Of a DNA stretch of 64,000 nt, positions 43,268 through 49,154 are shown piece by piece. The notes beneath the pieces were generated by a model, which was not told the DNA's origin, searched no databases, and saw only the letters and a list, made by a program, of their open reading frames with translations. This stretch comes from Acidobacteriota bacterium. GTDB lineage: Bacteria; Acidobacteriota; Terriglobia; Terriglobales; Acidobacteriaceae. Every line of letters starts with the position of its first letter. Position 1 is the stretch's first letter. The translations under genes and the position numbers were made by a program. The stretch is from contig JAJYSV010000004.1 of the NCBI GenBank assembly GCA_021793405.1, positions 62,001 to 126,000 on the forward strand, read 5' to 3'.

Positions 43268-44485
43268 CTAAAATGTCCTCACGTAGTTTTTGCCCGGCAT
43301 GGCACGCACGCGCCCGGCAAGTTCCAGCTCAAACAGCGCGGTAAAAATCTCCGACGAACTCAATTTGTCTTCCAGCATCTCGACCAATTCATCCAGTTGC
43401 AGTGCCTGGTCCGGACGCAACGCATCGAAGACGCGCGCCTGATCTTCCGGCAGATCGGGCAAATCCGGCTTGCTGAACAAAGATGCAGCAGACCCGTCGG
43501 AAGATGCAATTCCCTGCCGTTCCTCCACCTCCATGCGTATCTCCGTGGGCAGTTCTTCCCACACGTCTTCCCACGTGGCTACCAGCTTGGCGCCTTGTTT
43601 AATCAACGTGTTCGGGCCCCAGGAGTTCTTCGACGTCACATTGCCGGGGACCGCGAACACTTCGCGATTTTGTTCCAGCGCGCATCGAGCGGTAATTCGC
43701 GTGCCGCTGTTTTCGCCGGCCTCAATCACCAGCACGCCGACGCTCATGCCGCTGAGTATTCTGTTGCGAATGGGAAAGTTCTGCGGCGCGGGAAAGGTTC
43801 CCATCGGATATTCGCTGAGAATTGCGCCTCCCGCCTCGAGGATCTGCTCCGCCAGTCGCTTGTTCTCCTTGGGATAGATGACATCGATCCCGGTGCCCCA
43901 AACGGCGATGGTTTTGCCGCGCGCATCGAGCGCGCCGCGATGCGCCGCTGTATCGACACCCCGCGCCATGCCGCTCAAAATAATCAAGCCATGCGCTGCC
44001 AGATCGCGGGCCAGCATCTCCGCCATTCCTGTTCCATAGGGCGTGGGATGGCGCGTCCCGACGATTGCAATTCCAGGCTGCGCCAGCGACGCTTTGTCGC
44101 CGCGCAACCACAACACGGTGGGAGGATCGTAGATCTCGCGCAACCGCTCCGGATATTCGTCGTCCGCGGGGGTGATCAGCGTTCCACCACCCTCCTGCAC
44201 ACGCTTCCATTCTTTTTCCGCTTCGATCAGGGATTTGCCGGAAACGATCGACTGCGCCGACACGGCCGGCAGGCGCAAGCCTTCCAACTGTGTCAGCGGC
44301 AGAGCCAGCACGCCTTCCGCGCTGCCAACGGTGTTGACGGCCCGCCAAATGCGAGTCATTCCAAGACGGCTGGTCATCGCAAGCGCAAGCCATGCCCGCC
44401 GCTCGCCATCCAGCACCTGCGGATCGGCCGGATCAAGGATGCTCTTTGCGCTATCGGAAGATCGGGAAGGAATATTCATGATCAA
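43268..44485 (-). CDS. dprA: DNA-processing protein DprA
   Basis: DprA loads RecA on incoming single-stranded DNA during natural transformation. It has 405 aa: an N-terminal helical region, a Rossmann-like DNA-binding domain with VGTRHPTPYG, SGMARGVDTAAHRGAL and GTGIDVIYPKEN, and a C-terminal winged-helix domain (about 335-395, QALQLDELVEML). GNVTSKNSWGPNTLIKQGA is also conserved. With cinA at 55 kb, this fits a competence or recombination toolkit, but dprA is broadly conserved and does not prove competence. Confidence 0.93.
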   Translation of the reverse strand: MIMNIPSRSSDSAKSILDPADPQVLDGERRAWLALAMTSRLGMTRIWRAVNTVGSAEGVLALPLTQLEGLRLPAVSAQSIVSGKSLIEAEKEWKRVQEGGGTLITPADDEYPERLREIYDPPTVLWLRGDKASLAQPGIAIVGTRHPTPYGTGMAEMLARDLAAHGLIILSGMARGVDTAAHRGALDARGKTIAVWGTGIDVIYPKENKRLAEQILEAGGAILSEYPMGTFPAPQNFPIRNRILSGMSVGVLVIEAGENSGTRITARCALEQNREVFAVPGNVTSKNSWGPNTLIKQGAKLVATWEDVWEELPTEIRMEVEERQGIASSDGSAASLFSKPDLPDLPEDQARVFDALRPDQALQLDELVEMLEDKLSSSEIFTALFELELAGRVRAMPGKNYVRTF

Positions 44486-45965: not shown

Positions 45966-46307
45966 ATGAAAGTAAGTCGGATTATCGCATCGCACGCGTG
46001 GTTACTTGCCGCATGCATGGCAGGGGCACAGGTACGGACTCCTGCGCCAACTGCCAACCATCCAGCAACCATGCAAAATACTACCCAGCCGGATGCGAAC
46101 AGGGCTCAAGCGCAGAAAGCGCAGGCTAAAGAAGTCAAGCGGCAAGTCAAGTATAAGAATAAGGCGGCAAAAGACCGAGTGAATGCTCTCAAGGAGCAGG
46201 AGAAGGCCTCAAAAAGCCGGGCCAAGGCAAACAGACAGCGAGACAAATCTGACGTGGATCTAGCCAAGGCCGCCACCGAGCAGGAACAGTCTACTCCGCA
46301 ACCGTAA
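45966..46307 (+). CDS. Small secreted Lys/Ala-rich protein
   Basis: This 113-aa protein has a signal peptide (about residues 1-21, ending AGA) and then a very basic, Ala/Gln/Lys-rich helical body with repeated AKxxKR- and KSRAKANRQRDKS-type segments and an acidic end. It is likely periplasmic or secreted. I recognise no family. A -10 consensus lies upstream. Confidence 0.6.
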   Translation: MKVSRIIASHAWLLAACMAGAQVRTPAPTANHPATMQNTTQPDANRAQAQKAQAKEVKRQVKYKNKAAKDRVNALKEQEKASKSRAKANRQRDKSDVDLAKAATEQEQSTPQP

Positions 46308-46444: not shown

Positions 46445-46549
46445 TCACTTTGTACGGTTGGCGCAACGAAGGCCGACCATCTTTCCGGCTGCATCCCATA
46501 AGGAGCCGAAGACGCGCCGCGCGGCCTCAGGATTCTTCCCAGTAGCCAT
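46445..46549 (-). CDS. Possible 34-aa small protein at the glycosyltransferase 3' end
   Basis: ATG 46549 lies inside the end of the glycosyltransferase fragment and encodes a 34-residue frame that reads NPEAARRVFGSLWDAAGKMV, with a strong coding look and ending in TGA at 46445. Another short frame (46291-46395) follows. Neither is recognisable, and both may be chance frames. Confidence 0.25.
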   Translation of the reverse strand: MATGKNPEAARRVFGSLWDAAGKMVGLRCANRTK

Positions 46550-46727
46550 GGTCGCGAAGGAAGTAATCGGGATTGCCGGAGTTCAGCGCGGTCTTCAAAA
46601 ACATGCCGGCAATTTGCATGTGTCCCATTTTTTGAAAGCGCCGATTCGAGGTCATCACCTCGCCGGGAATCACAGCAAATCGCCGCAGCGAGACCAGGTC
46701 CCCACTGACAGGTGGATCGAGCTGCAA
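46527..46727 (-). pseudogene. Glycosyltransferase family 2, C-terminal fragment
   Basis: This minus-strand frame encodes SLRRFAVIPGEVMTS, then NRRFQKMGHMQIAGMFLKTA and ends YFLRDHGYWEES. These segments look like the C-terminal end of family 2 glycosyltransferases whose N-terminal part lies at 48062-48469 on the same strand and in the right order. A stretch of roughly 70-80 residues between the two parts is missing and replaced by the lower-GC insert. The frame has no proper start, so the fragment is probably not made as a functional protein. Confidence 0.5.
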
Positions 46728-46774
46728 CCTTGAGCAATCGTGAGCGTATACTGACCGGGATCGGAGGCGCCATA

Positions 46775-47359
46775 ATGGCGATTCATGGTTGGTATTTCGC
46801 CTGGTGGCTGTTAGATGTTTTAGTGCTCAGCATCTTTATTGCTGTGTTTGAAATCTTTTTTGAAAAGGACAACGGGTGGGCATCCGGGTTAAGCCAGCAC
46901 GGACTTGGGAAACGCCTGTGGCAAGGGACCACTTTCGTTCGGCTGTTCGAAAAGCCCTACATCACTGTCTACCACTTGACGATGTTCGGCGCGATCGTAC
47001 CCCTGATCCTTGTCGGCCAATATTGGATCGTCCGAGTCTTCTTGGTTAGCCATGCTTTCGCCATGCACGACATCGGAATATTGACGATATGGCAGGTTGG
47101 ATCTGTACGCTTCATGCCGCTGTTTTCCATTATCGCGGCGTGGCTAGCTATCTCTACCATAGAGGACTTCATGTGGTTCGCATTGAATTGGTACTACCCC
47201 ACTAGCCTACAGGATCTATTCTCTGGCCGAATTTGGTGGCACACTCGATGGATCGCACTCGGCAAGATCAAAGTTCCAAGATTTTATATATCTACACTAG
47301 TAATCGCGGCGGTCTTTCTGTATGCGAGCACGCACATTGCAAGGATTGCAGGCGCCTAG
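46775..47359 (+). CDS. Multi-pass membrane protein, unknown function
   Basis: This 194-aa protein has about four to five hydrophobic segments rich in Trp and Phe (YFAWWLLDVLVLSIFIAVF, LTMFGAIVPLILVGQYW, FSIIAAWLAIS, ISTLVIAAVFLYAS). ATG 46775 is preceded by a good ribosome site (GGAGG); an upstream in-frame start is weaker. Polar loops carry an acidic FFEKDNGW motif and HAFAMHDIG, of the kind that might bind metal, but this is speculative. Composition differs from the flanking genes. The second insert gene follows by 62 bases. Confidence 0.65.
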   Translation: MAIHGWYFAWWLLDVLVLSIFIAVFEIFFEKDNGWASGLSQHGLGKRLWQGTTFVRLFEKPYITVYHLTMFGAIVPLILVGQYWIVRVFLVSHAFAMHDIGILTIWQVGSVRFMPLFSIIAAWLAISTIEDFMWFALNWYYPTSLQDLFSGRIWWHTRWIALGKIKVPRFYISTLVIAAVFLYASTHIARIAGA

Positions 47360-47421
47360 ACGCAATCTCGTGCCGCTGGTTCGCAACAGGGACTCTGCTT
47401 CGTTGGGAGAGCGGAAAACGG

Positions 47422-48096
47422 ATGAAGACCACCGATGAGACACTCAAGGACTATTGGGTCCTAGCAATAGGTGTTGCGTCTGCGACCGCTTATTGGTTGA
47501 TGTCGAAAGAAGTATTTCTCAGAGCGCTCACCAGCGGCATAGGCCCTGCCATCACGTTTATTGCTGTGCTGGCTTCCACGCTGCTGTTTTTCGCCTTTTA
47601 CATCGCTGGTACGAACGACGATCTCGATAAAGCGGCGGGATATGTCACGGGAATCAAGTTGGAAGGACCTTGGCACATCATCCTTATTTTTGCATTGGCC
47701 ATATGCTTCGGTGCCCTTTTTGCGTTTGCCGCTAACCTTATCGTTTACTGTGGGATTCTGTTCGGTCTTCTACTTGTAGACTTTATTGGCTTCCTCACCA
47801 TAAGGCGGAAATTCATCAAGAATGAGGCCAAAGCCAAAGAGAGGGTGCCGCTAACAAAGTGGCGCGCCCTCAAGAACTATTATTTCGTGAGACCTCATCT
47901 ACTACTGCGCTCGTTGCGGCTCCTGGGAACTGCCGTCGCTTTGGCCCTCGCCGTGTTGCTGGAAACGAGACGATCCGCCGCTCTAGGCGAGCTTGCCTGG
48001 GCGATCGTAGTTGCATCTGTGTGGTCTGCTGAGTATTGCCACTCAAACTGGCGTAAATTACTTAAAAAAGATTTGGGGTTACATCCCGCACATTGA
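47422..48096 (+). CDS. Multi-pass membrane protein, unknown function
   Basis: This 224-aa protein from ATG 47422 has an N-terminal polar stretch, then hydrophobic segments (YWVLAIGVASATAYWLMS, ITFIAVLASTLLFFAFYIAG, IILIFALAICFGALFAFAAN, LIVYCGILFGLLLVDFIGF), a basic loop (RRKFIKNEAKAKER) and two further helices. An open frame continues upstream but lacks membrane character. It is the partner of the preceding gene, on the same strand with similar composition. Its last codons run into the junction with the glycosyltransferase fragment. I recognise no family. Confidence 0.6.
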   Translation: MKTTDETLKDYWVLAIGVASATAYWLMSKEVFLRALTSGIGPAITFIAVLASTLLFFAFYIAGTNDDLDKAAGYVTGIKLEGPWHIILIFALAICFGALFAFAANLIVYCGILFGLLLVDFIGFLTIRRKFIKNEAKAKERVPLTKWRALKNYYFVRPHLLLRSLRLLGTAVALALAVLLETRRSAALGELAWAIVVASVWSAEYCHSNWRKLLKKDLGLHPAH

Positions 48097-48469
48097 GATT
48101 CAGTAAGTCAAAAGCAGAGTAATCATCGGACTTGGACGCTTTTTCCGGTGCCTCCACGGAACGCCGCAGCAGGGATGGATCGCGCAGCTCTACATCCGCA
48201 TCCACAAGAAGCACATAAGGTGTGGCAGCGCGATGCGCGCCTGCATTGCGGCCCACGGCAGGCAGACCTCCGGGGATAATCTCAACGAGAAACCGCGCGG
48301 GAAACGACCGCGCGATTTCTGCTGTACCGTCGGTTGAGTTGGCATCAGCAACGAACACTCTGGTATCCGGCAAGCGCAGGTAATCCTGCCGATTCAAAGA
48401 GGTCAGCAGCTTCGGCAACGACTGGCTCTCGTTCCGCGCTGGAATGACGATAGTGAGTTCCGCCCGCAT
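48062..48469 (-). pseudogene. Glycosyltransferase family 2, N-terminal fragment
   Basis: This 135-aa frame starts at ATG 48469 with LTIVIPARNESQSLPKLL, the GT-A nucleotide-sugar entry motif, then VVADANSTDGTAEI-like strand (VFVADANSTDGTAEI) and the metal-binding LLVDADVELRD. It then ends in 25 unrelated residues at the junction with the lower-GC insert, so roughly the first half of the enzyme remains. The C-terminal half appears to lie at 46527-46727. The start overlaps the end of the upstream metallophosphoesterase gene by 125 bases in another frame. Confidence 0.7.
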
Positions 48470-49154
48470 AGGTTTGGATCTCCACGCCGTGCTGGTTGAT
48501 GGTAAGGAACGTGGCGCGCGCATCGACCCACGAGCCGGAGTTGTAGTACTCTACGCCGTCGCAGAGCAACGACAACGCGGCATGCGTGTGGCCGCAGAAC
48601 ACGCGCTCGCATTTACCAATGCGAGCATCATGGATCGCTCCCCTGGCAACTTTGTCGGAGAGCAGCAGCCAACGTGTGTTCAGGCGATCCAGAAAGCGCG
48701 AGAAACATTTGGTACGCGAATCCACTTTCTGGATTTCCAGAAAGATCCGCTCTCCCAAACGCCTGAGCCATCGATTCTTTTTGACGAAGCCATCGAACTG
48801 GTGCCCATGCATGGCCAGGTGACGTTTGCCTTCGTACTCCCACACATACCGCTCGTAGACGGGAACACCGACCAGGTGGGACATCAGGTTCGCGAGACCA
48901 GTATCATGATTGCCCTCCACCCAGACCACTTCGACCTGACGCTTCGGATTGGAAAGCTTGCGAATATAAGACAAAAACTTCCAGTGCTCGCTGGTGAGGC
49001 GGCGAAAATTGAGATCGGAAAAAATATCGCCCAGCAGCACCAGGCGCCGATAGCGATGCGACTGCAGCATGTCGAGCGCATCCTGCGCCCGGCTCAGTTC
49101 GGACCCAAGATGAATGTCCGACAAGATCAGCGTGTCGTACGGGTCGCCATTCAT
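48345..49154 (-). CDS. LpxH-like metallophosphoesterase
   Basis: This 269-aa calcineurin-type phosphoesterase has the five motifs: DIHLG (D-x-H), LLGDIFSD, WVEGNHDTG, MHGHQFDG and FCGHTHAAL. The pattern and size resemble UDP-2,3-diacylglucosamine pyrophosphohydrolases of lipid A synthesis (LpxH/YbbF group), which would fit the Gram-negative envelope, although related phosphoesterases act on other substrates. It precedes the glycosyltransferase fragment on the same strand with a 125-base overlap, so the two probably were one unit acting on lipids or LPS. Confidence 0.85.
   Translation of the reverse strand: MNGDPYDTLILSDIHLGSELSRAQDALDMLQSHRYRRLVLLGDIFSDLNFRRLTSEHWKFLSYIRKLSNPKRQVEVVWVEGNHDTGLANLMSHLVGVPVYERYVWEYEGKRHLAMHGHQFDGFVKKNRWLRRLGERIFLEIQKVDSRTKCFSRFLDRLNTRWLLLSDKVARGAIHDARIGKCERVFCGHTHAALSLLCDGVEYYNSGSWVDARATFLTINQHGVEIQTYAGGTHYRHSSAEREPVVAEAADLFESAGLPALAGYQSVRC

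Follow-up and report, generated by a model that had tools for sequence, protein, structure and literature searches.

Operons that join a PlcP phosphoesterase to a glycosyltransferase lead to the production of phosphorus-free glycolipids under phosphate limitation (PMC9239053, PMC4796936, PMC5193443, PMC8528852). A gene row from Oxalobacteraceae (L056:1133-4429) resembles these plcP-agt or UgtP-type operons, as it contains an OlsB-like acyltransferase, an LpxH/PlcP-like phosphoesterase and an MGDG_synth glycosyltransferase, followed by a gene for a four-helix membrane protein. All of these neighbour assignments lie below the NCBIfam cut-offs, and the row resembles a single phosphorus-free lipid operon. 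In contrast, no four-helix membrane gene is mentioned for the plcP-agt and UgtP-type operons in the sections of those reports used here (PMC9239053, PMC4796936, PMC5193443, PMC8528852), and the four-helix family did not surface in text searches for the lipid genes. The locus described here differs from these operons in another respect, since it has just an LpxH/PlcP-like phosphoesterase and a broken GT2 glycosyltransferase gene.

The window is a stretch of 64,000 nucleotides from an Acidobacteriota bacterium (contig JAJYSV010000004.1, positions 62,001 to 126,000). An earlier, sequence-only reading of it had described a glycosyltransferase gene split by two membrane-protein genes. The account considered probable here is that the GT2 gene of a metallophosphoesterase-GT2 pair lost its function through the replacement of approximately 245 bp of its interior by acquired DNA that carries two membrane-protein genes. 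The features of the locus are as follows.

46527-46685, minus strand: putative GT2 pseudogene, piece 2, the last 51 residues (46527-46682) and the stop codon (blastn; protein alignment to 8/8 congeners)
46681-46689, plus strand: CGCCGCAGC, 9-bp direct repeat near the left junction (read by eye)
46686-48155, no strand: insert of about 1,470 bp (alignment to relatives; absent as DNA from nine congeners)
46775-47359, plus strand: ORF1, 194 aa, predicted four-helix membrane protein, divergent family member (family HMM, masked-motif score, AF2)
47422-48096, plus strand: ORF2, 224 aa, predicted multi-pass membrane protein with five hydrophobic segments (codon-usage score; no convincing relative)
48062-48155, minus strand: read-through tail of piece 1 in the insert, to the stop codon, non-homologous (identity to relatives ends at about 48156)
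48156-48469, minus strand: putative GT2 pseudogene, piece 1, residues 1-104 of the intact protein (PF00535; 77-86% aa identity to eight intact congeneric GTs; alignment)
48162-48170, plus strand: CGCCGCAGC, second copy, 6 bp outside the right junction (read by eye)
48345-49154, minus strand: calcineurin-like metallophosphoesterase gene, precedes GT2 (Pfam PF12850/PF00149; continuous DNA match in L009-L016)

The N-terminal open frame (48062-48469, minus strand) contains a DAD motif and matches Pfam Glycos_transf_2 (PF00535) with an E-value of 3.5e-17 over residues 6-102, while the C-terminal frame (46527-46727, minus strand) has no Pfam match. When 61 genomes were searched with the N-terminal piece, intact GT2 proteins of 238-249 amino acids were found in eight of the nine other genomes of the genus, all at 1.7e-50 or better. 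The ninth (G001, 73% complete) gave no match better than 2.3e-6. Piece 1 is most similar in its homologous part to these PF00535 orthologues, and piece 2 matches the final 51 residues of all eight in a gap-free alignment. As DNA, piece 2 up to about 46685 aligns to the 3'-terminal part of this gene in six of the eight congeneric loci (L009-L014), with blastn identities of 79-81% for L009-L012 and L014 and 73% for L013; L015 and L016 gave no blastn match to it. Its homology perhaps extends to about 46695.

The two pieces correspond to residues 1-104 and 188-238 of the congeneric orthologues, and the window has the insert in place of residues 105-187. This gap of 83 alignment columns confirms the proposed deletion, although its size had been estimated at 70-80 residues. 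As judged from these alignments, both flanking pieces are one GT2 gene that has lost its middle third. The proposal of a single gene in two collinear minus-strand pieces thus holds, the C-terminal piece belongs to the same family as the N-terminal one, and the uninterrupted gene exists in close genomes. In ten further genomes of the bacterial family, the GT2 open frames are 243-345 amino acids long, compared with 162 in the window. Because the gene is intact in eight of nine congeners and the open frames are longer in these ten genomes, the split state is considered derived. The lost region includes a Y-A-E-D stretch common to all eight congeneric GT2 proteins, which we take to be the region where GT2 enzymes have their catalytic base. 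With residues 105-187 missing, no complete GT2 domain including this stretch occurs in one open frame in the window. With the Y-A-E-D region gone, GT2 enzyme function was almost certainly lost as well, and the gene is now taken to be a pseudogene.

The order of metallophosphoesterase and GT2 is the same in the window and the eight congeneric loci, suggesting a pair kept in the genus in which GT2 would be the second gene. The metallophosphoesterase is the only match in its own genome to an LpxH/PlcP-like probe at E ≤ 0.01 (28% identity, 7.4e-17).

In the closest relative (G009, locus L011), 244 bp occupy the place where the window has approximately 1,470 bp; window position 48156 pairs with L011 position 743, and 46685 with 988. 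This agrees with the insertion-with-deletion that had been suggested. The DNA between the pieces is indeed of lower GC (0.507 versus 0.577 for the window). The codon-usage z-scores of ORF1 and ORF2 (-3.39 and -4.00) are below those of all 50 other ORFs of the window, a set that may include spurious ones and therefore makes a milder test. The insert DNA is found in none of the nine congeners. Among the 61 genomes searched, ORF1 and ORF2 were each found in their own genome alone, where each matches just itself. The lower GC, the low codon-usage scores and the absence from nine congeners make the insert look foreign, and it was presumably acquired horizontally. It counts against the preferred account that neither a donor sequence nor a second copy is known, which leaves the route of acquisition unproven.

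The surroundings of the insert also show signs of exchange. The identity between the window and G009, calculated in 75-base steps, is 85-100% between 45475 and 46450 and also outward of 48250, and falls to 73-84% in the steps adjoining the insert (46525-46685 and 48156-48250). In the C-terminal part of GT2, G009 is the outlier: its identity to the four nearest congeners is 71.9-74.5%, whereas that of the window is 79.7-81.0%. Against three further congeners, the values of G009 and the window hardly differ (68.6-70.6% and 69.9-71.2%), and the N-terminal stretch adjoining the insert reveals no contrast between G009 and the window in their identity to congeners. Because divergence from G009 rises beside the insert and G009 is the outlier in the C-terminal part, some recombination or allele exchange at the GT2 gene is likely, in one lineage or the other. 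This divergence complicates the preferred account. A small Lys/Ala-rich protein of 113 amino acids without a Pfam match is encoded nearby at 45966-46307, within a block that shares 91% DNA identity with L011. DprA, a recombination mediator common in bacteria, is encoded at 43268-44485 of the window, which proves nothing about the insertion.

Both plus-strand ORFs encode multi-pass membrane proteins, as had been claimed. ORF1 is preceded by GGAGG 7 nt before its ATG and has four hydrophobic segments by hydropathy. Its AF2 model (mean pLDDT 74.9, pTM 0.70) places helices at residues 5-33, 65-97, 114-137 and 169-191, so hydropathy and model agree on four transmembrane helices. ORF1 alone gave no match in the first scan of the genome contig collection and none in plasmid and phage records, and its best matches in Pfam, NCBIfam and PHROGs, at E 0.07 or worse, were rejected as evidence of a known family. 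Foldseek matched the AF2 model to nothing at an E under 6, and VIA-align, run against 32 chains, gave no Z above 4.9; no fold is claimed.

Relatives were reached through a viral contig (L032, 58% identity to ORF1 over 31 residues), a degenerate pattern that led to a second contig (L035) and a profile search that led to a genome of the same phylum (G075). An alignment of six sequences then led to 67 family loci in genome contigs, chosen by the motif [IL]EDF[LM]WF[VAW] and kept by tblastn from 89 pattern matches. The family HMM has 65 rows (L099 and L103 left out), and alignment A5 consists of 64 loci plus ORF1 (L092, L099 and L103 left out). The consensus includes the pieces EIQIEG..GWA..LPTWRI, GGRP.TGYH, IEDFLWFVLNP and WHK.W. 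For the 65 family proteins (ORF1 and 64 loci), Pfam and NCBIfam gave no match at E 0.01, and profile A4 retrieved one row from PDB sequences, at E 0.58. Three weak profile matches (L037-L039, E 0.003-0.006) did not come back with a larger profile at E 0.001 and were rejected. Within the phylum, the family profile found members in 2 of 396 genomes, the present one included, with at most nine candidates scored per genome.

Against the HMM of 65 loci, which was made without ORF1, ORF1 scores 58.9 bits. Since the loci had been picked by the motif, the corresponding IEDFMWFA was masked in ORF1; the score was then 36.2 bits, and it was 22.4 bits when 32 residues from IEDF to the WWH region were masked, compared with 14.9 for the best of 500 shuffles. 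ORF1 keeps 19 of the 26 columns that are conserved in at least 90% of the other 64 members, including E26, Y66, H67, E130, D131, F132, W134, F135, N138 and P168. It differs at the remaining seven, among them G31, W42 and P139, which are identical in 64/64 of the rest, and its helices 2 and 3 are separated by an additional stretch. Its identity to the family is at best 33% over 124 columns. By its profile scores, ORF1 is a member of the four-helix family; because of the seven changed columns and its very long branch in the tree, it is called divergent, and its function may differ from that of its relatives. This divergence also weighs against the preferred account. An earlier idea that ORF1 is closest to an archaeal group was dropped, as the tree places it on a long branch between the archaeal/CPR group and the rest, and for the same reason no origin is claimed.

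ORF2 gave no convincing relative in Pfam, NCBIfam, PHROGs, 61 + 297 genomes, viral contigs, plasmids, phages or PDB sequences, and its best matches to known families in the first three were likewise at E 0.07 or worse and discarded. An ORF2 match in G260 (E 0.0026, 74 residues, one stop) was taken as chance. Among the matches obtained for the insert, one to L031 (E 2e-4) was rejected because that frame reads by eye as an MFS-like transporter. Folding without an alignment gave a pTM of 0.37. ORF2 therefore appears to be an orphan within the collections searched. The notion that the two genes form a small undescribed cassette is thus upheld for one partner: ORF1 is a member of a broad family that no Pfam or NCBIfam model covers and that most commonly has a glycolipid-type glycosyltransferase as its neighbour, whereas ORF2 stays alone. 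Within the collections covered for ORF2 the pair did not recur, and no ORF2 relative lies among the neighbours of the 67 four-helix loci.

The neighbours of the family were collected as ATG-start ORFs of at least 90 amino acids within 3 kb, a mechanical pick that surely includes some spurious ones. Glycosyltransferases of one family adjoin the four-helix gene at 27 of the 67 loci, 26 of them on the same strand. All 67 loci are used in each denominator; 54 have flanks of more than 1.2 kb on both sides, and the glycosyltransferase is present at 24 of them. The two genes overlap or are separated by fewer than 50 bases in 24 of the 27 cases (20 upstream, 4 downstream), with start codons chosen by the author and stop codons excluded from the gaps. 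Two further same-strand glycosyltransferases lie upstream at 180-190 bases, and the 27th, on the other strand, is at 348. MGDG_synth (PF06925) is matched by 26 of these enzymes and the GT28 C-terminal domain (PF04101) by all 27; one of them is nearest to diglucosyl diacylglycerol synthase in NCBIfam, below the cut-off. The carriers of both genes include Burkholderiales, Geobacter relatives, Lentisphaerae, Verrucomicrobia, Riflebacteria and a Gemmatimonadota genome. By Pfam, other glycosyltransferases adjoin the family gene at L047, L101 and L105 and lie further off at L078, while those at L102, L089 and L091 are look-alikes by clustering alone. An LpxH/PlcP-like phosphoesterase occurs within 3 kb at 5/67 loci and an OlsB/OlsF-like acyltransferase at 4/67, both named from L056 and L062. 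These neighbours are termed PlcP- or UgtP-like by their profile matches. Neighbours of these kinds are missing from many family loci, for example in Dehalococcoidia. ORF1 itself has no adjoining MGDG_synth-type glycosyltransferase, a feature that is frequent in the family and not universal, and no GT-B glycosyltransferase neighbour, unlike many family loci.

Because of this gene order beside glycolipid-type glycosyltransferases, the four-helix protein may help in glycolipid synthesis or handling. In the preferred account, ORF1 would be a lipid-glycosylation partner in the inner membrane, acting as a scaffold or in substrate delivery or product handling. It is a weakness of that account that the usual MGDG_synth partner of ORF1 is missing from the genome. 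A bolder proposal is that ORF1 represents a four-helix helper or subunit of bacterial glycolipid synthesis (phosphorus-free lipid operons) that has so far escaped recognition, is spread from Pseudomonadota to Patescibacteria and archaea, and here travels with ORF2 as a new partner and has taken over a lipid-glycosylation locus; this is tentative and considered unlikely.

The plainest reading of the entry of the insert is a one-off insertion-deletion by recombination, which may have been illegitimate or homology-facilitated, and not transposition. The sequence-only reading had suggested an unknown element without a visible transposase. A true mobile element, passenger or non-autonomous with two cargo genes, could have inserted with an adjacent deletion, and the foreign composition of the insert and the 9-bp direct repeat CGCCGCAGC at 46681-46689 and 48162-48170 would fit such an event. 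However, homology to relatives runs on for 6 bp past its right copy, where the window and L009 still agree over TTCCGT, which places the repeat away from the junction; a target-site duplication by CGCCGCAGC was therefore dropped, and no other clean one was found at the insert junctions. The two ends share no inverted-repeat pair, no match to a transposase family was obtained for either ORF, and the insert is present as a single copy in the genome and in none of the congeners. The lack of a transposase is thus as had been noted, but the element itself finds no support in these features, and such an origin is rather improbable. The foreign composition and the lack of a visible donor relative would also suit an assembly artefact, in which DNA from another organism of the sample was joined into GT2, and the 4.6-Mb genome is in 137 contigs and may be a metagenome assembly. 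A chimera would nevertheless need two joins inside one gene; both junctions are far inside one contig and are flanked on each side by collinear DNA, and the estimated contamination is 0.85%, so that this explanation is very improbable.

The insert could also be read as decayed sequence without true genes, since no ORF2 homologue was found in the collections searched. Against this stand the HMM score of ORF1 and a longest stop-free run of 296 codons in the insert, which exceeds that of all 1,000 shuffles (maximum 234), leaving this reading a negligible probability. Another alternative is an adaptive exchange, in which ORF1 as a helper and ORF2 as its partner replaced GT2 beside the sole LpxH/PlcP-like phosphoesterase within a shared lipid pathway. 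The adjoining MGDG_synth-type glycosyltransferases at 27/67 family loci (one by the GT28 C-terminal domain alone) and the phosphoesterases at 5/67 speak for it, and the uniqueness of the phosphoesterase beside the insert is suggestive. In contrast, ORF1 and ORF2 are convergent to the phosphoesterase-GT2 pair and therefore do not share an operon with it, the genome has no MGDG_synth gene (PF06925), and the two Pho-box-like sites in the window (up to three mismatches; 4.4 expected by chance) are not near the insert. Such an exchange has a low probability. Inactivation of GT2 by a single replacement with acquired DNA thus remains the probable explanation.

Gene inactivation by acquired DNA is ordinary, and the lasting interest of the locus lies in the unnamed four-helix family. 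A membrane-protein family that lacks Pfam and NCBIfam models and whose gene, in several phyla, overlaps or directly adjoins that of an MGDG_synth-type glycosyltransferase is a lead worth following; if its members make or move glycolipids, a gap in a known lipid pathway would be filled. Members also occur on putatively viral contigs of a viral collection, at L032:4728-5162 (77.6 kb) and L035:715-1161 (63 kb). In G075, two family genes that are 52% identical stand in tandem (L036:940-1983), with no adjoining glycosyltransferase of the neighbour family, downstream of a gene that reads by eye as elongation factor G. The second of them is identical to the L042 protein (100% over 172 residues).
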